Assembly: GCF_026339875.1 (NCBI RefSeq)
Contig: NZ_JAPEPZ010000001.1
Location: 6,200,001 to 6,264,000 of the forward strand
DNA from: Streptomyces sp. NBC_01571
Lineage (GTDB): Bacteria > Actinomycetota > Actinomycetes > Streptomycetales > Streptomycetaceae
Reading direction: 5' to 3'
DNA: 64,000 bases
The notes under the pieces are model-generated. The model made no database searches. It had not been told where the DNA came from and worked only from the letters and a program-made list of their open reading frames with translations. Both the position numbers and the translations under genes were made by a program. Below are positions 24,533-39,418 of this stretch, one piece after another (position 1 is the stretch's first letter; each line of letters starts with the position of its first letter).

Positions 24533-24555
24533 TTGTCAGTGCGGCCGCCTAGACT
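24533..24555 (+). promoter_or_regulatory. DNA-damage promoter (RecA-NDp/PafBC type) of pcrA
   Basis: TTGTCAGTG (24533-24541), 8 bases, TAGACT (24550-24555). This is an exact match to the actinobacterial TTGTCRGTG-N8-TANNNT motif of LexA-independent damage-induced genes. The expected transcription start is near 24562, three bases before the ATG. Confidence 0.85.
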
Positions 24556-24564
24556 CGGAGAGCG

Positions 24565-27129
24565 ATGAGCAGCCTCTTTGATGACAGCTTCCTGGCGGAC
24601 CTCAGGCCTTCCGGGGCCCATGAGGAAGAGTCCCCGCCGCCGCCCGAGGACGAGGCGGCGGAGCCGCTTCCGGACGACCTGTTCGGCGGCCGCTTCGACG
24701 TGCCCCCGGACCGCGACGCGTACTACCGCGACGGCGCCCACCGGCCCGCCGTCGACCCGGCGGCCCTGCTGGACGGGCTGAACGAGAACCAGCGCGCGGC
24801 CGTGGTGCACTCCGGCTCCCCGCTGCTCATCGTGGCCGGCGCCGGCTCCGGCAAGACCCGGGTGCTCACGCACCGGATCGCGCACCTGCTGGGCGAGCGC
24901 CATGTCCACCCCGGCCAGATCCTCGCGATCACCTTCACGAACAAGGCCGCGGGCGAGATGAAGGAGCGCGTCGAGCAGCTCGTGGGCCCGCGCGCCAACG
25001 CCATGTGGGTGATGACCTTCCACAGCGCGTGCGTGCGCATCCTGCGCCGCGAGTCGAAGAGGCTCGGCTTCACATCCTCCTTCTCGATCTACGACGCCGC
25101 CGACAGCAAACGCCTGATGGCCCTGGTCTGCCGTGACCTGGACCTCGACCCGAAGCGTTTCCCGCCGAAGTCGTTCAGCGCCAAGATCTCCAACCTGAAG
25201 AACGAGCTGATCGACGAGGAGGACTTCGCCGGCCAGGCGGCGGACGGCTTCGAGAAGACCCTCGCCCAGGCCTACGCGATGTACCAGTCGCGGCTGCGCG
25301 AGGCCAACGCGCTCGACTTCGACGACCTGATCATGACGACGGTCAACCTGCTCCGCGCCTTCCCGGACGTCGCCGAGCACTACCGCCGCCGCTTCCGCCA
25401 CGTCCTGGTCGACGAGTACCAGGACACGAACCACGCGCAGTACGCCCTGGTCAGGGAGCTCGTGGGACCGGCGAGCGGCGATCGTCCCGAGGACGTGCCG
25501 CCGGCCGAGGGCGACCTCGGGCCCGCCGAGCTGTGCGTCGTGGGCGACGCCGACCAGTCGATCTACGCCTTCCGCGGTGCGACCATCCGCAACATCCTCC
25601 AGTTCGAGGAGGACTACCCGGACGCGACGACGATCCTCCTGGAGCAGAACTACCGCTCCACCCAGACGATCCTCAGCGCGGCCAACGCGGTCATCGAGCG
25701 CAACGAGTCGCGCCGCCCCAAGAACCTGTGGACCAACGCGGGCGCGGGGTCGAACATCACGGGCTACGTCGCCGACACCGAGCACGACGAGGCACAGTTC
25801 GTCGCCGACGAGATAGACCGTCTCACCGACGCGGGCGAGGCGAAGGCGGGCGACGTCGCGGTCTTCTACCGGACGAACGCCCAGTCCCGTGTCTTCGAGG
25901 AGATCTTCATCCGCGTCGGCCTGCCCTACAAGGTCGTCGGCGGTGTCCGCTTCTACGAGCGCAAGGAGGTCCGGGACGTCCTGGCCTACCTGCGGGTCCT
26001 GTCCAACCCCGAGGACTCCGTCCCGCTGCGCCGGATCCTGAACGTCCCCAAGCGAGGGATCGGCGACCGCGCCGAGGCGATGATCGACGCCCTCTCGCAG
26101 CGGGAGAGGATCAGCTTCCCGCAGGCTCTGCGCCGCGTCGACGAGGCGTACGGCATGGCGGCGCGCTCGACGAACGCCGTGAAGCGGTTCAACACGCTCA
26201 TGGAGGACCTCCGTACGATCGTCGAGTCCGGCGCGGGCCCGGCGACGGTCCTGGAGGCGGTCCTCGAGCGCACCGGCTATCTCGCCGAGCTCCAGGCCTC
26301 CACCGACCCGCAGGACGAGACCCGCATCGAGAACCTTCAGGAACTCGCGGCCGTGGCGCTGGAGTTCGAGCAGGAGTCCGGTGGGGGCGAGGACGGTGCC
26401 GGAGCGGCTGCCGGGACCGCGGCGGCCGACGAGGCTGGAGCGGCCGGCGGGGCTGGAGCGGCCGGGGCGGCCGGCGGGCTCTCCGAGTTCCTGGAGCGGG
26501 TCGCGCTCGTCGCCGACTCCGACCAGATCCCCGACGAGGACGACGGCAACGGCGTCATCACCCTGATGACCCTGCACACCGCCAAGGGCCTGGAGTTCCC
26601 GGTCGTGTTCCTCACCGGCATGGAGGACGGGGTCTTCCCGCACATGCGTGCGCTGGGGCAGGTCAAGGAGCTGGAGGAGGAGCGGCGGCTCGCGTACGTC
26701 GGCATCACGCGCGCGCGGGAGCGGCTCTATCTCACCCGCTCGTCCATGCGCAGCGCGTGGGGCCAGCCCTCGTACAACCCGCCCTCCCGCTTCTTGGAGG
26801 AGATCCCGGACACGCATCTGGAGTGGAAGCGCACGGGCGCGACGGCTCCGGTGTCCTCGGGGCCCGTCTCGGGGGTGGCGGCCTCGCTGTCGTCCTCGCG
26901 CTCGCGGTCCGCGGCGTCCGGGGCCTCCGGTTTCGCGACGCGCCGCGGGGCCTCCGAGAAGCCGGTCGTCTCGCTGGCGGTGGGCGACCGCGTCACCCAC
27001 GACCAGTTCGGGCTCGGCACGGTGGTCGGCGTGAAGGGCATGGGGGCGAACGCGGAGGCCACGGTCGACTTCGGAGAGCCCAAGCCGAAGCGGCTGCTGC
27101 TGCGGTACGCGCCGGTGGAGAAGCTCTAG
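24565..27129 (+). CDS. pcrA: UvrD/PcrA-type ATP-dependent DNA helicase
   Basis: An 854-residue superfamily 1A 3'-5' helicase for DNA repair and for clearing RecA filaments or stalled forks. Motifs in order: Q motif LNENQRAAV near 71, Walker A AGAGSGKTRVL near 92, Ia ITFTNKAAGEMK, II VDEYQDTN near 286, III GDADQSIYAFRGA, IV LEQNYRST, V TLHTAKGLEFPVVF near 672, VI LAYVGITRARERLYLTRS near 710. The C-terminal 60 residues (VGDRVTHDQFGLGTVV) form the Tudor-like RNA-polymerase-binding domain of PcrA/UvrD. An Ala/Gly repeat insert of about 35 residues lies near 612-645, before motif V. It is controlled by a DNA-damage promoter and is nearly leaderless. Confidence 0.96.
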   Translation: MSSLFDDSFLADLRPSGAHEEESPPPPEDEAAEPLPDDLFGGRFDVPPDRDAYYRDGAHRPAVDPAALLDGLNENQRAAVVHSGSPLLIVAGAGSGKTRVLTHRIAHLLGERHVHPGQILAITFTNKAAGEMKERVEQLVGPRANAMWVMTFHSACVRILRRESKRLGFTSSFSIYDAADSKRLMALVCRDLDLDPKRFPPKSFSAKISNLKNELIDEEDFAGQAADGFEKTLAQAYAMYQSRLREANALDFDDLIMTTVNLLRAFPDVAEHYRRRFRHVLVDEYQDTNHAQYALVRELVGPASGDRPEDVPPAEGDLGPAELCVVGDADQSIYAFRGATIRNILQFEEDYPDATTILLEQNYRSTQTILSAANAVIERNESRRPKNLWTNAGAGSNITGYVADTEHDEAQFVADEIDRLTDAGEAKAGDVAVFYRTNAQSRVFEEIFIRVGLPYKVVGGVRFYERKEVRDVLAYLRVLSNPEDSVPLRRILNVPKRGIGDRAEAMIDALSQRERISFPQALRRVDEAYGMAARSTNAVKRFNTLMEDLRTIVESGAGPATVLEAVLERTGYLAELQASTDPQDETRIENLQELAAVALEFEQESGGGEDGAGAAAGTAAADEAGAAGGAGAAGAAGGLSEFLERVALVADSDQIPDEDDGNGVITLMTLHTAKGLEFPVVFLTGMEDGVFPHMRALGQVKELEEERRLAYVGITRARERLYLTRSSMRSAWGQPSYNPPSRFLEEIPDTHLEWKRTGATAPVSSGPVSGVAASLSSSRSRSAASGASGFATRRGASEKPVVSLAVGDRVTHDQFGLGTVVGVKGMGANAEATVDFGEPKPKRLLLRYAPVEKL

Positions 27130-31005: not shown

Positions 31006-32652
31006 TCATGGCATTGTCGGAGCCCGCTCGGGTTCCGGCACCGCCAGCTCCGCGGTCATCTCCGCGCGCAGCCGCAACGTGGTGACGAGGCGCTGGAAGG
31101 CCTCGGCCCAGTAGCCGCCGGCCCCCGGCGCCGCGTTCTCCGTCTCGTCGGGAATCGCCGTGAGCGCGTCGAGCCGACCGGCCTCGAGCGGATCCAGGCA
31201 CCGCTCTGCCAGCCCCATCACCCCACTGAAGCTCCATGGATAACTCCCCGCGTCGCGTGCGATGTCGAGCGCGTCGACCACCGCACGCCCCAGGGGCCCC
31301 GCCCACGGCACCGCACAGACCCCCAGCAGCTGGAACGCCTCGGACAAGCCGTGCGTGGCGATGAACCCCGCCACCCACTCGGCCCGTTCGGCCGGACCCA
31401 GCGTGGCGAGCAGCTTCGAACGCTCCGCCAGCGACACCGCCCCCGGTCCGCCGGCCTCCGGCGCGGAGGGCGCGCCGAGGAGCGCCCGGGACCACCCGGG
31501 GTCCCGCTGCCGTACCGCCGCCCGGGACCACGCGGCGTGCAGTTCGTTCCGCCAGTCGTCCGCCACGGGAAGCGCGACGATCTCCTCCGGTGTGCGTCCC
31601 CCCAGCCGCCGCGGCCATGTCCCGAGCGGCGCTGCTTCGACCAACTGGCCCAGCCACCACGACCGTTCCCCTCGTCCCGCCGGAGCTTTCGGTACAACAC
31701 CGTCCCGCTCCATGCTCGCGTCGCACTCGTGCGGCGCCTCGACGACGATCGAGGGCGTCCCCTGCGTGCGGTCGACGGCCACGCACGAACCGGCCCGTGC
31801 CGCCATCCGGGCGGCCAGCGCCGAACCGGGCAGCGCGGACAGCAGCTCCGCGGCCGTGGCCCGGACATTGCGGCTGCGGTCGGTGAGCGCCCGCTCCAGG
31901 AACGGCTCGTCGGCCGGCCCCAGCCCTGACCGCAGCGAGTCGAGGAACATCAGCCGGTCCTCGGCCCGCTCCGCCCCCCAGGTGGTGGCGAGCAGCTCGC
32001 GCGCGGTCGCCGGACGCCGGGCCCGCAACGCTGTGAGCAGCGCGACCCGCTCGGCGAACAGGCCCTCCTGCCACAGCTGTTCCGTACGCTCGGGCTCGTC
32101 GGGCCCGGGCAGCGCGGCGCCGCCCCCCGGCAAGGAACGCAAGGCGAACCGCCAGTCGGGGTTCAGCCGGGCCAGCCACAGGGCGCGCGGTCCGGCGAAG
32201 GTCAGCGCGGCCGGCCGCAGATCCGTACGGCCCCGGGCCGCGTCGAGGAGTGCGGGCAGCGCTTCCGGAGGAGCCGCGAAACCGTGCGTGTTGGCCAGCG
32301 CGAGCCACTGGGGCAGCAGTTCCACGAGGTCGGGGGCCGCGCCCCGGCGGCCACCTCCGGTGCCGGGCCGGTCGGCCAGCAGCACCGCGAGGCGGTGGGC
32401 CGCGGCGGGCGGGAGGGGGTGTCGCGGGTCCGGCGCCGCGGGCTCGGGCCGGGCGGCCGCCCGGCCCGGCCGCATCCCGGCCCGCCGCCGCAGGGTCGCC
32501 GCGGCGGCCGCGTCCAGGACGGCCACCGGCACCTCGCGCCCCGCCGCCCACGCGGGCGGTGTACGCCGCTCGGTCCCGAGCAGCGCCACGGTGACGAGCT
32601 CGTCCCAGGAGCCCTCGACGGGCGCACCCGTCGAGGCGGAGGTCGCGTTCAT
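31006..32652 (-). CDS. DUF5691 family protein
   Basis: A 548-residue, Leu/Ala-rich, largely helical protein with repeats reminiscent of HEAT-type solenoids (LTDRSRNVRATAAELLSALPG near 270-290). The N-terminus WDELVTVALLGTERR is the family landmark. It has no membrane segment or catalytic motif that I recognise. The ATG at 32652 lies 88 bases after the SWIM gene stop in the same direction, so the two are an operon, and the family is usually seen beside SWIM-domain proteins. With the divergent MoxR-DUF5682-VWA operon it forms one system; a scaffold or adaptor role is inferred. Confidence 0.8.
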   Translation of the reverse strand: MNATSASTGAPVEGSWDELVTVALLGTERRTPPAWAAGREVPVAVLDAAAAATLRRRAGMRPGRAAARPEPAAPDPRHPLPPAAAHRLAVLLADRPGTGGGRRGAAPDLVELLPQWLALANTHGFAAPPEALPALLDAARGRTDLRPAALTFAGPRALWLARLNPDWRFALRSLPGGGAALPGPDEPERTEQLWQEGLFAERVALLTALRARRPATARELLATTWGAERAEDRLMFLDSLRSGLGPADEPFLERALTDRSRNVRATAAELLSALPGSALAARMAARAGSCVAVDRTQGTPSIVVEAPHECDASMERDGVVPKAPAGRGERSWWLGQLVEAAPLGTWPRRLGGRTPEEIVALPVADDWRNELHAAWSRAAVRQRDPGWSRALLGAPSAPEAGGPGAVSLAERSKLLATLGPAERAEWVAGFIATHGLSEAFQLLGVCAVPWAGPLGRAVVDALDIARDAGSYPWSFSGVMGLAERCLDPLEAGRLDALTAIPDETENAAPGAGGYWAEAFQRLVTTLRLRAEMTAELAVPEPERAPTMP

Positions 32653-32740
32653 GAACGTCCTTTCCGTACGGAGGCACGGAGCCGGGGAAAGCGGGCGGTG
32701 CCCGGGACGGGGAAGCCGGTGGTGGACGTGGTGTCGCGGG

Positions 32741-34096
32741 TCAGCACAGCCGTACCGCCTCGCCCGCGCCCTCGGGCCAGGCCGTGAGCGGAGCGAAGCC
32801 ACGGTGACCGCACTCGCCGAAGACCGTGACGGGGGCGCCGCCGGAGAGGGCGGCCAGCCGCCACAGCCCGGGGCCGGAGAGCGCCGAGGGCGTGAGGGGG
32901 AGCGCGCAGTCACCCTCCGCGTCAGCGAGTTGCCAGGTGTCTCCGTCCGGGGTGGGTATGACCCGGGACAGCGTGACCGGGCAGGCGTCGAGCCAGGGAT
33001 CGTCCCGCAGGGCCTCGCCGTAGCGGGCCGCCGCGCGGAGTGTGCTCACTCCCGGCGGGCGGGTGCGCGTGGGTGCCGGGAGGGTGAACCGCTCGCCCAG
33101 GGACGCTCGTTGCTGCCCCGTGCCCGGGTACGCCGACACCTCCGCCTCGAAGGCCAGGCCCACCGGCAGGGTCAGCTGCGGCGCGCGGCCGGCCGCCCCG
33201 TAGGAGAGGACCCGGACCGTGCGGCCGGACTCCGCGCCGTACAGCCAGATCCTGCGGGTGGTGAGCCGGCTGTCCGCCGTGTCGTACTGGGCGAGGACCA
33301 GCCAGCGGTCCCGCAGCGGGGGGCCGCCCGCCGGGCCGGACAGACCGACCCGGGAGCGGACCGTCGCGGCCAGGCCGTCCGGCAGCGACTCCCGGCGCAG
33401 CCAGCCCTGGTCGAGGAGATGGAGCAGCGCGCACTCCTCCAGCAGCCGTACGGGCCAGCCCGGCCCGGAAGCGGGGACCGCCCCCAACTCCCGCACCCGC
33501 GCGGCCAGTCCGGGCGCCTGCGCGTCGACCATGCGGGCCGCCGTCTCCTCCCACATCCCGTACCCCGCCTGCTCGGCCGCGGCGAGGCCGCCCCGCAGCA
33601 GGTCGGCCAGCCGCCGCTCCAACTCCCCCGCCCCGGCGGTGATCCGCGCGGCCCGGCGCTCCGCCCTGCGCCGGGCCGCCTCCGGGTCAGCCGGTGACGC
33701 CGTCCCAGATGCCGCGTCCGTCGTCCGAGTCGCCGCCGCTCGCTCCCTTCTCCCCTCCGTCCATCGCTCCGCCCAGTCCGGCACGGGTCCCCGCGGCACC
33801 GTGCCCTCCTCGCCCGCCCAGAGCAGGAGCAGTCCCAGCGTGTGTTTGCACGGGACCTTCCGGCTCGGACAACTGCATGTGCACGCGGGCCCGGTGGAGT
33901 CCGCGATGTCGACGACCGTCCGATAAGGCGTGCTGCCGCTTCCTCTGCACAGTCCCCATAGCGTCCCCTCGTCAGAACTGCCTGTTTCCGACCACGGTCC
34001 GGCGGTGCCGAGCTTGCTGCCCGCTCTGCGTGACGCCACGTCAGGCGCCAGTGCCAGCACCTGATCCGCCGTCCAGCGCACCCCCTGCTGAGTCAT
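32741..34096 (-). CDS. SWIM zinc-finger protein
   Basis: A 451-residue protein. The SWIM zinc finger is CTCSCPSRKVPCKHTLGLLL near 72-91 (C-x-C...C-x-H). After a charged Arg/Ala-rich helix the rest has no family I can name. SWIM domains bind DNA or proteins. The ATG at 34096 begins MTQQGVRWT; a perfect damage-type promoter predicts a transcription start at 34097, so the message would be leaderless, which explains the lack of a ribosome-binding site. First gene of a two-gene operon with DUF5691, divergent from the MoxR operon. A similar grouping of SWIM, MoxR and VWA genes is known in Escherichia coli (the yehL-yehP-yehQ region). Confidence 0.88.
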   Translation of the reverse strand: MTQQGVRWTADQVLALAPDVASRRAGSKLGTAGPWSETGSSDEGTLWGLCRGSGSTPYRTVVDIADSTGPACTCSCPSRKVPCKHTLGLLLLWAGEEGTVPRGPVPDWAERWTEGRRERAAATRTTDAASGTASPADPEAARRRAERRAARITAGAGELERRLADLLRGGLAAAEQAGYGMWEETAARMVDAQAPGLAARVRELGAVPASGPGWPVRLLEECALLHLLDQGWLRRESLPDGLAATVRSRVGLSGPAGGPPLRDRWLVLAQYDTADSRLTTRRIWLYGAESGRTVRVLSYGAAGRAPQLTLPVGLAFEAEVSAYPGTGQQRASLGERFTLPAPTRTRPPGVSTLRAAARYGEALRDDPWLDACPVTLSRVIPTPDGDTWQLADAEGDCALPLTPSALSGPGLWRLAALSGGAPVTVFGECGHRGFAPLTAWPEGAGEAVRLC

Positions 34097-34103
34097 GTCG
34101 TCG

Positions 34104-34126
34104 AAGGTAGGTCCCACCACTGACAA
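34104..34126 (-). promoter_or_regulatory. DNA-damage promoter of the SWIM-DUF5691 operon
   Basis: Minus strand: TTGTCAGTG (34126-34118), 8 bases, TACCTT (34109-34104). It is an exact match to TTGTCRGTG-N8-TANNNT. Predicted start at 34097, adjacent to the ATG at 34096. Confidence 0.85.
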
Positions 34127-34164
34127 TCGACCTTCGCGAGCGCGTCCGTGCAGGTCAGAGCGGA

Positions 34165-34187
34165 TTGTCAGTGGTGTGGTGCACGGT
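34165..34187 (+). promoter_or_regulatory. DNA-damage promoter of the MoxR-DUF5682-VWA operon
   Basis: TTGTCAGTG (34165-34173), 8 bases, CACGGT (34182-34187). The first half is exact; the -10 matches TANNNT except for its first base. It mirrors the promoter at 34104-34126: together they form the inverted repeat ACCACTGACAATC (34116-34128) and GATTGTCAGTGGT (34163-34175), with outer arms ggtccca and tgggacc. Confidence 0.75.
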
Positions 34188-34230
34188 GGGACCAGATCCG
34201 AACCGGCCGAGCAGGAGGGGGGACCGAGCC

Positions 34231-35430
34231 ATGACCGTGTCCATCGAGTCCGTGGAACCGACGTCCGTCGATACGCCGGCGGGACAGGCCGGGGGAGCGG
34301 CCCCGGGCGACAGCGCCGACGGGAGCGCGGGGGGAGCCGGCGGGACCGCGGGCGAGGTGCTGCGGCCGCACGCCGAGCACGCCTTCGCCGCCGAACTCGC
34401 CGCGCTGGCCGCGCAGGACGACCGGCCCCGCCCGGCCCGCTGGCGGCTGTCGCCGTGGGCGGTGGCGACCTATCTGCTGGGCGGCACCCTGCCGGACGGC
34501 ACGGAGATCACACCGAAGTACGTGGGCCCGCGCCGCATCGTCGAGGTCGCGGTCACCACCCTCGCCACCGACCGCGCCCTACTGCTGCTCGGCGTGCCCG
34601 GTACCGCGAAGACCTGGGTGTCCGAGCACCTGGCCGCGGCGGTCAGCGGCGACTCGACCCTCCTGGTGCAGGGCACCGCCGGCACACCGGAGGAGGCGAT
34701 CCGCTACGGGTGGAACTACGCGCAACTGCTCGCGCACGGCCCCAGCCGGGACGCGCTCGTGCCCAGTCCGGTCATGCGCGCCATGGCCGAGGGCATGACG
34801 GTCCGCGTCGAGGAGCTGACCCGTGTCCCGGCCGACGTACAGGACACGCTGATCACGATCCTGTCGGAGAAGACCCTGCCCATACCGGAGTTGGGCCAGG
34901 AGACCCAGGCCGTCCGCGGCTTCAACCTGATCGCCACGGCCAACGACCGCGACCGCGGTGTGAACGAGCTGTCCAGCGCCCTGCGCCGGCGCTTCAACAC
35001 GGTGGTGCTGCCGCTGCCGGAGAGTGCCGAGGCCGAGGTGGACATCGTCTCGCGCCGCGTCGACCAGATCGGCCGCTCGCTCGACCTCCCGTCGGTCCCG
35101 GACGGCGTCGACGAGATCCGCCGGGTCGTCACCGTCTTCCGTGAGCTGCGCGACGGAGTGACGGCGGACGGGCGTACGAAACTCAAGTCGCCCAGCGGCA
35201 CGCTGTCCACCGCCGAGGCGATCTCCGTCGTCACCGGCGGGCTGGCGCTGGCCGCCCACTTCGGCGACGGCGTTCTGCGCGCCTCGGACGTGGCCGCGGG
35301 CATCCTCGGCGCCGTCGTCCGCGATCCGGCGGCCGACCGGGTGATCTGGCAGGAGTACCTGGAGGCGGTCGTCCGCGAGCGCGAGGGCTGGAAGGACTTC
35401 TACCGGGCCTGCCGGGAGGTGAGCGCGTGA
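34231..35430 (+). CDS. MoxR-family AAA ATPase
   Basis: A 399-residue AAA+ chaperone-type ATPase. After a Gly/Ala-rich N-terminal 50 residues come Walker A GVPGTAKTW near 122, Walker B-type TVRVEELTRVP near 190, sensor 1 FNLIATANDRD near 230, and the arginine-finger region SSALRRRFNTV near 249. The ATG at 34231 follows aggagggggg. Its stop codon overlaps the GTG of the next gene (GTGA). MoxR ATPases typically act with VWA proteins, remodelling or inserting a metal or cofactor into a target; the VWA partner is two genes downstream. Transcribed from the damage-type promoter at 34165-34187. Confidence 0.93.
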   Translation: MTVSIESVEPTSVDTPAGQAGGAAPGDSADGSAGGAGGTAGEVLRPHAEHAFAAELAALAAQDDRPRPARWRLSPWAVATYLLGGTLPDGTEITPKYVGPRRIVEVAVTTLATDRALLLLGVPGTAKTWVSEHLAAAVSGDSTLLVQGTAGTPEEAIRYGWNYAQLLAHGPSRDALVPSPVMRAMAEGMTVRVEELTRVPADVQDTLITILSEKTLPIPELGQETQAVRGFNLIATANDRDRGVNELSSALRRRFNTVVLPLPESAEAEVDIVSRRVDQIGRSLDLPSVPDGVDEIRRVVTVFRELRDGVTADGRTKLKSPSGTLSTAEAISVVTGGLALAAHFGDGVLRASDVAAGILGAVVRDPAADRVIWQEYLEAVVREREGWKDFYRACREVSA

Positions 35431-38141
35431 CCGGACCACGGGAGGGGGCGGGTGAGGAACGCGTCCCCGGAGTGCGGGAGGGGACGCAGAGCGAGGAACT
35501 CGGCCTGCGAGAAGGGACGGAGAGGGAGGAACCCGCCGTCCGGGAAGGGGCGGAGGAGCCCGGTGTGCGGGAGGGGACGCGGCGCGCGGTCGGGGCGGGG
35601 CCGGATCGGGTGCCTCCCGCGCGGGCGGGCGGGCCGCTGCTGCTGGGGGTGCGGCACCACGGCCCCGGCTCGGCGCGTGCCGTGCGGGCCGCGCTGGACG
35701 CGGCGACACCCCGGACCGTCCTGATCGAGGGACCCCCGGAGGCCGACACGCTCATTCCGCTCGCCGCCGACCCTGACATGCGTCCTCCGGTCGCGCTCCT
35801 GGCCCATGTGGTGGACGAGCCGGGCCGCTCCGCCTTCTGGCCGCTGGCCGAGTTCTCCCCGGAGTGGGTGGCGATCCGGTGGGCGCTGGATCACGGTGTC
35901 CCGGCCCGCTTCATCGACCTGCCGGCGACGCACACGCTGGCATGGGGGAAGGAGGAACCGCCCCGGTCACCCGCCGAACCCGCCGAACCCGCGGGCGACG
36001 CCGTGCGGATCGACCCGCTCGCCGTGCTCGCCGAGACAGCCGGTCACGACGATCCCGAGCGCTGGTGGGAGGACGCGGTCGAGCACCGGAGCGGGACCGG
36101 TACCGATCCGTTCGCGCCGTTCGCCGTGCTGGAGGAGGCGATGGGCGCACTGCGGGAGGCGTACGGGGGCGGCGGACACGACCGCGATCCGGAGCGGGAG
36201 GCGTACATGCGGCTCCAGGTACGCGCGGCACAGCGCGAGTTCGGGGACGACGTGGCCGTGGTGTGCGGAGCCTGGCACGTACCCGCGCTGCGCCGCAGAA
36301 CCACGGTCGCCGCCGACCGGGCGCTCCTCAAGGGGCTGCCCAAGGCCAAGGCCGACATGACGTGGGTGCCGTGGACGCACCGCCGGCTGTCCCGGGCCGG
36401 CGGGTACGGCGCGGGCATCGACTCGCCGGGCTGGTACGGGCACCTCTTCGGCGCCCCCGACCGTCCGGTCGAGCGGTGGATGACGAAGGTGGCCCGGCTG
36501 TTGCGCGACGAGGACCGGATGGTCTCCTCCGCGCACGTCATCGAGGCGGTGCGGCTGGCCGACACGCTCGCCGCCGTACGGGGCCGCCCGCTGCCCGGGC
36601 TGACCGAGGCCACCGACGCCGTACGGGCCGTGATGTGTGAGGGCTCGGACGTGCCGCTGGGGCTCGTGCACGACCGGCTCGTGGTCGGCGATGTGCTGGG
36701 CGAGGTGCCGCGGTCCGCACCCGCGGTGCCGCTCCAGCGCGACCTCGCCCGGCTCCAGAAAAGGCTGCGGATCAAACCGGAGCCGCTGGAGCGGGAGTTG
36801 GAGCTCGACCTGCGGGGCGAGAACGACGCGGGGCGGAGCCGGCTCCTGCACCGGCTGCGGCTGCTCGGCATCGGCTGGGGCGAGGCCGCCGCATCCCGCG
36901 GCAGCACCGGCACCTTCCGGGAGACCTGGCGGCTGCGCTGGGAGCCGGAGCTGTCCGTGCGGGTCGCCGAGGCCGGGGTGTGGGGCACGACCGTGCTGTC
37001 CGCGGCGACCGCCAGAGCGGAGGCGGACGCCGTCGCCTCGCCGGCCCTGGCCGACGTCACGGCACTCGCCGAACGCTGTCTGCTCGCCGGACTCACGGAC
37101 GCCCTGCCCGTGGTGATGCGGGTCCTCGCCGACCGGGCCGCGCTGGACACGGACGTCGGCCACCTCGCACAGGCGCTGCCCGCGCTGGTCCGCGCCCTGC
37201 GCTACGGGGACGTTCGCGGCACGGACACCCACGCTCTCACCGAGGTCGCCGCGGGCCTCGCCGAGCGGATCTTCGTCGGTCTCCCACCGGCCTGCGTGGC
37301 ACTCGACGCCGACGCCGCCGAGGACATGCGGCGCCACGTGGACGCGGTGCACGGCGCGGTGGGACTGCTGGGAGAGACGGGACTCCGGGGAGAGACGGGA
37401 CTGTTGGGAGAGACGGTCGCGGTGCGACCGTCCGTCGACGGACCGCCCGGCACGCGGATGCGCGGTCGGTGGCACTCCGTGCTGCGGGTGCTGTCCGGCC
37501 GCGACACCGTTCCCGGTGTGCTCCGTGGACGGGCCGTGCGGCTGCTGCTGGACGACGGCGAGCTGGGACAGGAGGAGGCCGCCCGGCTCATGGGGCTCGT
37601 GCTGTCGCCGGGCACGGAGCCGGGGGACGCGGCCGCGTGGATCGAGGGGTTCGTCGGCGGCGGCTCCGGCGGAGGCATGCTGCTCGTGCACGACGAGCGG
37701 CTGCTCGGATTGGTCGACGCGTGGCTGACGGGGGTACCGGCGGAGGCGTTCACCGATGTGCTCCCGCTGCTGCGGCGCACGTTCTCGGCGTACGAGGCCG
37801 GGGTGCGCAGGACGCTGGGGGAGCTGGTCCGGCGCGGCCCGGGGGCGCGGGGGAGCGCCGCGGCCGCCGCTTCCGGCATACCCGGGTTCGCCCCCGAGCT
37901 GGACGCCGGGCGCGCCGACGCCGTCCTGCCGGTGCTGCGCCTGCTGCTCGGGCAGGACGACAACGAAACCAACGAAACCACTGGCGCCGACGAATCCGCC
38001 GACGCGGACGCCGACGAAACCGGCGCCGATCAAGCCGCCGACGCCGACGCCGATGAAGCCGCCGACGCCGACGCCGACGCCGATGAAAGCGACGGCGACG
38101 AATCCGCAGACGCCGACGACCTCGTGGGGGCGGACCGATGA
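35427..38141 (+). CDS. DUF5682 family protein
   Basis: A 904-residue protein. The conserved N-terminal motif GVRHHGPGSARAVRAAL near 72-88, then VLIEGPPEAD, and a later VVCGAWHVPAL near 283, place it in DUF5682, which resembles EreA/ChaN/TraB-type folds with paired His-containing loops; hydrolase or binding activity is unproven. Two low-complexity expansions stand out. Residues 4-55 carry repeats of VREGT/LREGT. The C-terminal 60 residues are an Asp/Ala/Glu-rich tail (DADADE, repeated), very acidic. A three-unit GETGL repeat lies near 650. It overlaps MoxR by 4 bases (GTGA) and the VWA gene by 4 bases (ATGA), so the three are tightly coupled. Confidence 0.85.
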   Translation: MTGPREGAGEERVPGVREGTQSEELGLREGTEREEPAVREGAEEPGVREGTRRAVGAGPDRVPPARAGGPLLLGVRHHGPGSARAVRAALDAATPRTVLIEGPPEADTLIPLAADPDMRPPVALLAHVVDEPGRSAFWPLAEFSPEWVAIRWALDHGVPARFIDLPATHTLAWGKEEPPRSPAEPAEPAGDAVRIDPLAVLAETAGHDDPERWWEDAVEHRSGTGTDPFAPFAVLEEAMGALREAYGGGGHDRDPEREAYMRLQVRAAQREFGDDVAVVCGAWHVPALRRRTTVAADRALLKGLPKAKADMTWVPWTHRRLSRAGGYGAGIDSPGWYGHLFGAPDRPVERWMTKVARLLRDEDRMVSSAHVIEAVRLADTLAAVRGRPLPGLTEATDAVRAVMCEGSDVPLGLVHDRLVVGDVLGEVPRSAPAVPLQRDLARLQKRLRIKPEPLERELELDLRGENDAGRSRLLHRLRLLGIGWGEAAASRGSTGTFRETWRLRWEPELSVRVAEAGVWGTTVLSAATARAEADAVASPALADVTALAERCLLAGLTDALPVVMRVLADRAALDTDVGHLAQALPALVRALRYGDVRGTDTHALTEVAAGLAERIFVGLPPACVALDADAAEDMRRHVDAVHGAVGLLGETGLRGETGLLGETVAVRPSVDGPPGTRMRGRWHSVLRVLSGRDTVPGVLRGRAVRLLLDDGELGQEEAARLMGLVLSPGTEPGDAAAWIEGFVGGGSGGGMLLVHDERLLGLVDAWLTGVPAEAFTDVLPLLRRTFSAYEAGVRRTLGELVRRGPGARGSAAAAASGIPGFAPELDAGRADAVLPVLRLLLGQDDNETNETTGADESADADADETGADQAADADADEAADADADADESDGDESADADDLVGADR
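37940..38120. repeat. Tandem repeat coding for the acidic tail of the DUF5682 protein
   Basis: Multiple gccgacgcc / gacgccgat units of 6 to 9 bases, giving Asp-Ala repeats. The units are in-frame multiples of three, so expansion or contraction would change tail length without frameshift. Confidence 0.7.
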
Positions 38142-39418
38142 CCTCAGTACCGCTGGACCCGGCCGACGCGCCCCGACCTGACAGCGCGCCCCGGCCGACG
38201 GACGCACACCAGACGGTCGACGCCCCCCGACCGGTCGACGCACCGCGGCCGGTCGGTGTGCGCCGTGCGAACGCCTCGGCCGGCGAGCGGCTGCGGCGCT
38301 GGCGGCTCGTGCTCGGGGGCGACGAGGCGGACGGCACCGGACACGCGCTCGCCGGGCAGGACGCGGCGATGGACGGCGCGCTCACCGCGTTGTACGGGAA
38401 GGGGAGCGGGACGCAGTCGGGGCGGGACCGTTCGGCGGGGCTCGGGGCGTCCGCACCGTCGGTCGCGCGCTGGCTCGGGGACATCCGGACGTACTTCCCG
38501 TCGTCCGTCGTGCAGGTCATGCAGCGGGACGCGATCGACCGGCTCGGGTTGTCCGCCCTGCTGCTGGAGCCCGAGATGCTGGAGGCGGTGGAGGCCGACG
38601 TGCACCTGGTGGGCACCCTCCTCTCCCTCAACAAGGCCATGCCGGAGACGACGAAGGAGACCGCGCGGGCCGTCGTGCGCAAGGTCGTCGAGGACTTGGA
38701 GAAGCGGCTCGCGACCCGCACCCGGGCCTCGCTCTCCGGCGCCCTCGACCGCAGCGCCCGCATCAACCGCCCCCGCCACCACGACATCGACTGGAACCGC
38801 ACGATCGCGGCCAACCTGAAGCACTACCTGCCCGAACACCGCACGGTCGTTCCCGAGCGGCTGATCGGTCACGGACACGCCTCGCAGTCCCTGAGGAAGG
38901 AGGTCGTCCTGTGCGTCGACCAGTCGGGCTCGATGGCCGCGTCCGTCGTCTACGCGTCCGTCTTCGGGGCCGTCCTCGCGTCGATGCGGTCCATCGCCAC
39001 CCGGCTCGTCGTCTTCGACACGGCCGTCGTCGACCTCACCGACCAGCTCGACGACCCGGTCGACGTCCTCTTCGGCACGCAGCTCGGCGGCGGTACGGAC
39101 ATCAACCGGGCGCTCGCGTACTGCCAGTTGCAGATCACCCGGCCCGCCGACACCGTGGTCGTGCTCATCAGCGACCTCTACGAAGGGGGCATACGCGACG
39201 AGATGCTGAAGCGGGTAGCGGCGATGAAGGCGTCGGGGGTGCAGTTCGTGACGCTGCTGGCCCTGTCCGACGAGGGGACGCCGGCCTACGACCGTGAGCA
39301 CGCGTCGGCACTCGCGGCGCTGGGCGCACCGGCGTTCGCCTGCACACCCGATCTGTTTCCCGACGTGATGGCGGCGGCGATCGAGAAGCGTCCGCTTCCC
39401 GTGCCCGACGCCGTGTGA
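38138..39418 (+). CDS. VWA domain protein, CoxE-like
   Basis: A 426-residue protein. The first 45 residues are Pro/Asp/Arg repeats (DAPRPVDAPRPVG). A helical region (50-240) precedes a C-terminal von Willebrand A domain with a complete MIDAS: VLCVDQSGSMAAS near 252 (DxSxS), the Thr in GTQLGGGTDINRAL near 317, and the Asp in VVLISDLYEGG near 342. The MIDAS binds Mg or Mn and a partner ligand. The start overlaps the DUF5682 stop (ATGA). With MoxR it forms the classic MoxR-VWA pair; DUF5682 between them is the likely specific component or client. Last gene of the operon. Confidence 0.92.
   Translation: MTSVPLDPADAPRPDSAPRPTDAHQTVDAPRPVDAPRPVGVRRANASAGERLRRWRLVLGGDEADGTGHALAGQDAAMDGALTALYGKGSGTQSGRDRSAGLGASAPSVARWLGDIRTYFPSSVVQVMQRDAIDRLGLSALLLEPEMLEAVEADVHLVGTLLSLNKAMPETTKETARAVVRKVVEDLEKRLATRTRASLSGALDRSARINRPRHHDIDWNRTIAANLKHYLPEHRTVVPERLIGHGHASQSLRKEVVLCVDQSGSMAASVVYASVFGAVLASMRSIATRLVVFDTAVVDLTDQLDDPVDVLFGTQLGGGTDINRALAYCQLQITRPADTVVVLISDLYEGGIRDEMLKRVAAMKASGVQFVTLLALSDEGTPAYDREHASALAALGAPAFACTPDLFPDVMAAAIEKRPLPVPDAV

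Follow-up and report, generated by a model that had tools for sequence, protein, structure and literature searches.

In Streptomyces sp. NBC_01571, two divergent operons encoding a MoxR-type AAA+ ATPase, a DUF5682 protein, a VWA_CoxE protein, a SWIM zinc finger protein and a DUF5691 protein are separated by two back-to-back promoter-type sites, which match or nearly match the consensus of LexA-independent DNA-damage genes in Mycobacterium tuberculosis. The system is best read as a DNA-damage-induced AAA+ remodelling machine, to which we give a probability of roughly 0.6. It lies in the window analysed here, a stretch of 64,000 nucleotides (C1:6200001-6264000 of the 11.5-Mb genome G000; assembly GCF_026339875.1, contig NZ_JAPEPZ010000001.1). 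The promoter evidence is strong, and the mechanism is what we infer from the protein families, structure models and mycobacterial PafBC work. Regulation of both operons by this promoter type seems close to certain from the sequence comparisons, and a role in the DNA damage response is likely.

Pfam searches bear out the five protein names given in a preliminary description of this DNA, the MoxR protein matching AAA_5 (Table 1). The genes of the plus-strand operon are tightly packed, with 4-nt overlaps between the MoxR and DUF5682 genes and between the DUF5682 and VWA genes. The MoxR protein has the Walker A motif GVPGTAKT, and VRVEE in place of the usual hhhhDE. The metal-ion-dependent adhesion site (MIDAS) of the VWA protein, previously described as intact, is complete, comprising D261-x-S-x-S (D261/S263/S265), T320 and D346. 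This gene set, termed type A here, is nearly core to the genus, a DUF5682 place above 750 bits being found in 94/101 genomes.

Table 1. Features of the locus and the further motif copy in the window
Feature	Position	Strand	Details
DUF5691 protein	31006..32652	-	548 aa; Pfam E 2.8e-174; ATG start corrected to 32652
SWIM zinc finger protein	32741..34096	-	451 aa; Pfam SWIM; ATG start corrected to 34096
SWIM-DUF5691 damage-type promoter (putative)	34104..34126	-	TTGTCAGTG-N8-TACCTT; exact match; ATG 7 nt downstream
MoxR-DUF5682-VWA damage-type promoter (putative)	34165..34187	+	TTGTCAGTG-N8-CACGGT; C for T at first -10 position
MoxR-type AAA+ ATPase	34231..35430	+	399 aa; Pfam AAA_5 E 7.9e-37; ATG start corrected to 34231
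DUF5682 protein	35427..38141	+	904 aa; Pfam E 6e-299
VWA_CoxE protein	38138..39418	+	426 aa; Pfam E 1.8e-59
Third exact motif copy	24533..24555	+	9 nt upstream of pcrA (24565-27129; NCBIfam pcrA over cut-off); not part of the system

Both sites at the locus follow the pattern TTGTCAGTG-N8-YANNNT, and the earlier account of an exact minus-strand site and a plus-strand site with one -10 mismatch holds. Shuffled versions of the window gave a mean of 0.00 sites for this YA pattern, and 0.35 for a search allowing two mismatches. Conservation was followed in 60 Streptomyces loci, namely the window and the same region from 59 of the further genomes, out of the 94 with a DUF5682 place above the threshold; L098, the 60th stretch fetched, was excluded as a paralogue. 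With at most one mismatch in the core and one in the -10 element, both sites recur in 60/60 loci, conservation upstream of orthologues being the test proposed in the preliminary description. The SWIM site is exact in 56 loci and the 9-base core of the MoxR site in 58. The 9-base core carries 1.5-2.8 bits per position, versus at most 0.8 across -30 to -10. Because the ATG that opens the SWIM frame follows the -10 element by 7 nt in 57 loci and by 6 nt in the other 3, the SWIM-operon mRNA is probably leaderless. The MoxR site differs in kind from the SWIM site: its first -10 base is a non-consensus C in 59/60 loci, and it has a conserved TGGTG within its spacer. Perfect sites of the TA form number 56 in 727 kb of 59 loci, as expected from the SWIM sites plus one TA-bearing MoxR site.

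The motif is rare and specific at larger scale. In this genome 33 sites of the TA form stand against one for a reversed control, and 62 of the YA form against 2; across 61 Streptomyces genomes there are 1523 TA sites (11-44 per genome) versus 9 for the reversed pattern. Of the 31 TA sites outside the window, 22 had their downstream protein scanned and 9 were left out. DNA repair or replication accounts for nine of the 22 targets, namely RarA/MgsA, RuvC, a DEAD helicase closest to Hel308 models, an HHH_RecD2 protein, UvrB, O6-methylguanine methyltransferase, DnaX, RecA and a DinG/YoaA-like helicase. The targets also include a pair of Wadjet JetA proteins and ribosomal protein S6, and the remaining ten comprise a SUKH-4 protein, a DUF4253 protein, a methyltransferase, a sigma factor, a CoA-transferase and five proteins that match no Pfam family, one of them (L133) standing at the head of the type-D set described below. 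The pcrA copy in the window belongs to the same regulon, and its spacing to the start is again near-leaderless. No TA site was found upstream of the two strong MoxR-proper loci and the two other CoxE-VWA loci of the same genome; one CA site lies inside the frame of a MoxR-proper gene, on the opposite strand.

CA sites, which share the first -10 base of the MoxR promoter, number 28 outside the window. The eight scanned targets are a HolB-like protein, Lhr, topoisomerase IV A, Tex, NAD ligase, and DUF1963, DtxR-like and ArsR-like proteins. The ending CANNAT is present in 20/29 CA sites of the genome, versus an A at that place in 2/33 TA sites, and the CA sites may represent another class of promoter, or be due in part to chance.

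Several individual targets merit description. Wadjet JetA1 (PADLOC E 5.7e-198) starts 128 nt after an exact copy (L135, G000:C1:8687407-8687429) and JetA2 (E 2.4e-115) 36 nt after another (L148, G000:C5:69016-69038), so that Wadjet may be under damage control in this genome. An ECF (extracytoplasmic function) sigma factor of the SigX5/TIGR02960 type stands behind the exact copy L123 (G000:C1:6346668-6346690), and may extend the damage response.

A candidate regulator is also encoded. Two adjacent WYL genes lie ~2.4 kb from a Pup-ligase-family gene, as pafB-pafC do, and are identified by position only. A DEAD-box helicase gene with an exact motif copy (L006, G000:C1:2653419-2653441) lies ~3.5 kb downstream of this putative regulator pair and the Pup-ligase gene. 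Since the motif is conserved in 60/60 loci and a WYL pair occupies the pafB-pafC place, the earlier designation of the system as damage-promoter-driven appears well supported.

The consensus tTGTCRgtg-N8-TannnT was described for the LexA-independent damage genes of M. tuberculosis (PMC5656591), and a review extends the RecA-NDp promoter to other actinobacteria (PMC8223512). In mycobacteria, PafBC bound to single-stranded DNA (ssDNA) acts by sigma adaptation (PMC11804915). The Streptomyces regulon resembles the mycobacterial RecA-NDp/PafBC regulon in its consensus, in having RecA, UvrB and RuvC among its targets, and probably in the WYL pair near the putative pafA. Unlike the mycobacterial case, the MoxR promoter here is of the form CANNNT, and the targets include DUF5682 systems and Wadjet, which the available parts of the RecA-NDp/PafBC literature compared do not name. 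Among the best matches listed in the literature search, none linked these Streptomyces genes to DNA damage.

Three further MoxR-VWA-DUF5682 sets in the genus, types B, C and D, carry the same putative promoter type and are patchy between genomes. Type B has the order DUF4132, MoxR, DUF5682, VWA, SWIM, which is that of E. coli, with a WGR domain in L160, and the exact site is present in 5/5 loci (L158-L161, L194). A second type-B sample of 80 loci, 74 of them with enough upstream sequence, shares at least one strain with those five; here the exact site lies 3.0-6.5 kb before DUF5682 in 14/23 Streptomyces loci, and the whole sample (1.71 Mb) has 2 exact sites elsewhere and 0 for the reversed control. 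In three Lentzea loci (L261, L265, L266) TTGTCAGAC-N8-TA precedes the type-B gene, possibly a lineage-specific form of the motif.

With 3-4 kb of upstream sequence included, and with L153, which has no further upstream sequence, dropped, type C has the site in 12/12 loci, 11 of them exact, and its first gene is DUF4132 in 3/3 scanned. Type C had been considered as a motif-free control, and this was rejected, as its 0/7 score was an artefact of stretches that started within the first gene or only just upstream of it. A relation between the type-C large protein and the type-B DUF4132 protein was likewise rejected, there being no significant similarity.

Type D comprises the second DUF5682 copy in this genome and in two others, and the site is present in 3/3 cases, 2 exact. 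In this genome (L291:441-8172; G000:C1:8293940 onward) the set is divergent and stands behind an exact motif copy, with two unknown genes, VWA_CoxE, MoxR and a DUF5682-like gene; another CoxE-VWA gene, lacking the motif, lies ~14 kb beyond it on the opposite strand. The MoxR proteins of types B, C and D share 42-47% identity with the type-A protein, so that the sets are old paralogues with a common promoter type.

By family and arrangement, the locus genes represent the Streptomyces version of E. coli yehL-M-P-Q, which Pfam assigns to AAA_5, DUF5682, VWA_CoxE and SWIM, respectively, and which are likewise encoded together, the MoxR proteins being 41% identical. YehL is one of seven MoxR subfamilies (PMC3893208), and the literature text searched gave no function for it. 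Unlike the Streptomyces set, E. coli has a DUF4132 protein, YehI, encoded upstream, and no DUF5691 match in a search of this control genome. Full-length homology of the SWIM protein to YehQ was rejected, the profiles aligning over 24 columns at the finger only, and a relation between DUF5691 and DUF4132 was also rejected, as profile comparison shows none. DUF5691 itself is found in 44/196 genomes of the class and 13/81 genera, the window's own included. In other actinomycete genera the SWIM, DUF5691, MoxR and DUF5682 genes all run in one direction, as they do in a Deinococcus, a Methylosinus and a Rhizobium plasmid, with a VWA gene annotated in the Deinococcus and Rhizobium sets.

A DdrO-box-like site with two mismatches (L283 4732-4748) lies 19 nt before the SWIM gene on a Deinococcus taeanensis plasmid; as a single locus, with 0.35 such sites expected by chance in 20 kb, it is suggestive only. 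Two Deinococcus DdrO targets, DRA0166 (DUF4132) and DR2173 (WGR), are damage-induced and belong to families shared with the type-B system, although their regulator, DdrO, is a different one and the likeness is one of protein family.

How such a machine might operate can be outlined from the protein families, predicted models, the mycobacterial PafBC work and the established remodelling activity of MoxR-VWA pairs. After damage, ssDNA-bound PafBC would open both promoters to the housekeeping RNA polymerase, and all five proteins would rise together with RecA, UvrB, RuvC and PcrA. The MoxR protein would be the engine, a ring ATPase, with the VWA protein as its adaptor, holding a partner through the MIDAS metal, and DUF5682 would be a scaffold bearing a Tiki/ChaN-like domain at its N terminus, or an enzyme. 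The SWIM protein would bind ssDNA through two OB folds and direct the machine to damage, an aim that we put forward tentatively. The likely work would be to use ATP to remove or remodel proteins trapped on damaged DNA or ssDNA, or to activate a repair complex there.

The AlphaFold model of the SWIM protein has a pLDDT (predicted local distance difference test) of 89.8, and its structure matches suggest a SWIM finger with a predicted tandem OB fold. The DUF5682 model has a pLDDT of 83, and an N-terminal Tiki/ChaN-like domain is suggested, although no Tiki/TraB/ChaN entry is among the structure matches listed for it. The N-terminal part may also resemble the Tiki/TraB/ChaN superfamily in a GxRHH/E/GxxH pattern. 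Sequence searches of the PDB with DUF5691, SWIM and DUF5682 gave nothing convincing.

A number of observations weigh against a damage-induced machine. The scores for the OB and Tiki assignments are weak. Beyond Streptomyces, the exact site is present in only 2/24 type-A loci sampled (L165 being cut before the SWIM start), with a one-mismatch site in 6 more. Five of these eight sites lie 38-39 nt upstream of aligned SWIM residue 7, i.e. at the gene start, and the other three are from one genus (L166, L168, L197); the remaining 16/24 have no such site, L171, L173 and L178 showing TTGTC...TA there. For type B, only 3/51 non-Streptomyces loci have the exact site. The E. coli yeh region has no LexA box, searched as CTGT-N8-ACAG and as the long consensus at 3 mismatches, and neither the alphaproteobacterial box GTTC-N7-GTTC nor the actinobacterial GAAC-N4-GTTC was found at the starts of alphaproteobacterial type-A operons (L284-L288). 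A Sinorhizobium locus of type-B-like composition (L289) has one GTTC-N7-GTTC ~700 bp before its AAA gene. Finally, one study reports that the PafBC motif of M. smegmatis was not conserved in S. venezuelae in a first search, and that uvrD of that species, a gene with an intragenic LexA site, was unchanged by mitomycin C (PMC9380542); the latter result counts against the reading if the S. venezuelae uvrD promoter carries the motif.

The study of S. venezuelae and the off-consensus MoxR site would also fit ordinary or differently regulated promoters that do not respond to damage in Streptomyces. This we regard as very improbable, given how rare and specific the motif is, how many of its targets are repair genes, and that its consensus is that of the M. 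tuberculosis LexA-independent damage genes; the motif counts across the genus also disagree with the published remark on non-conservation. The preliminary description had alternatively proposed a conflict system, which in a damage-triggered form would attack or silence foreign DNA, its promoter firing when phage or plasmid DNA replicates. The two Wadjet JetA genes (PADLOC types 1 and 2) behind the same motif and the patchiness of types B, C and D favour this, as do the MoxR-VWA modules known in conflict systems, such as the MoxR-vWA-beta-propeller ternary systems (PMC7159879). Unlike those, the MoxR protein here scores 25.6 bits for the bpMoxR domain, under the curated cut-off of 27, and SWIM, YehL and YehM were not found in the text of that paper that was searched. 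A PADLOC scan at E 0.01 gave no family for DUF5682, VWA, SWIM or DUF5691, and for MoxR a weak RtcR-like match. This nearly empty result, the near-core distribution of type A and the share of repair and replication proteins among the targets weaken the conflict proposal to an unlikely one, its small probability resting on the Wadjet genes that carry the motif.

A metal- or cofactor-insertion chaperone like NorQ-NorD, maturing an enzyme needed after damage, with DUF5682 handling metal or haem, is a further alternative. NorQ is among the PDB matches of the MoxR protein, the VWA protein is CoxE-like, and PF04187 (ChaN, a haem-binding family of the Tiki superfamily) is weakly matched in 5/40 DUF5682 members (best E 0.044; TraB in one, E 0.24). 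The two operons contain no metalloenzyme gene, however, and none is annotated inside the gene sets of several phyla, which makes this reading quite unlikely. The pairing of a MoxR ATPase with a MIDAS-bearing VWA protein is shared with NorQ-NorD, RavA-ViaA and other MoxR-VWA pairs, from which the Streptomyces system differs in its extra DUF5682, SWIM and DUF5691 subunits and in its damage-type promoter.

A DNA-damage-induced remodelling machine thus remains the favoured reading, and it would provide a testable role for the YehL subfamily of MoxR, DUF5682 and DUF5691. More broadly, the motif counts indicate that Streptomyces has a mycobacterial-type RecA-independent damage regulon, contrary to the published remark, and one that comes with a concrete target list including the two Wadjet JetA genes. 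It is conceivable, though doubtful at present, that YehL-class MoxR-VWA-DUF5682 machines form an unrecognised and widespread arm of the DNA damage response, in which a ring ATPase aimed at ssDNA by the SWIM-tandem-OB protein would strip or remodel nucleoprotein complexes that have become stuck. Control would then have passed to distinct damage regulators from phylum to phylum, PafBC in actinomycetes and DdrO in Deinococcus, with one promoter type common to several Streptomyces paralogues. Should the OB-fold prediction be true, the system would be an AAA+ remodeller working at ssDNA.

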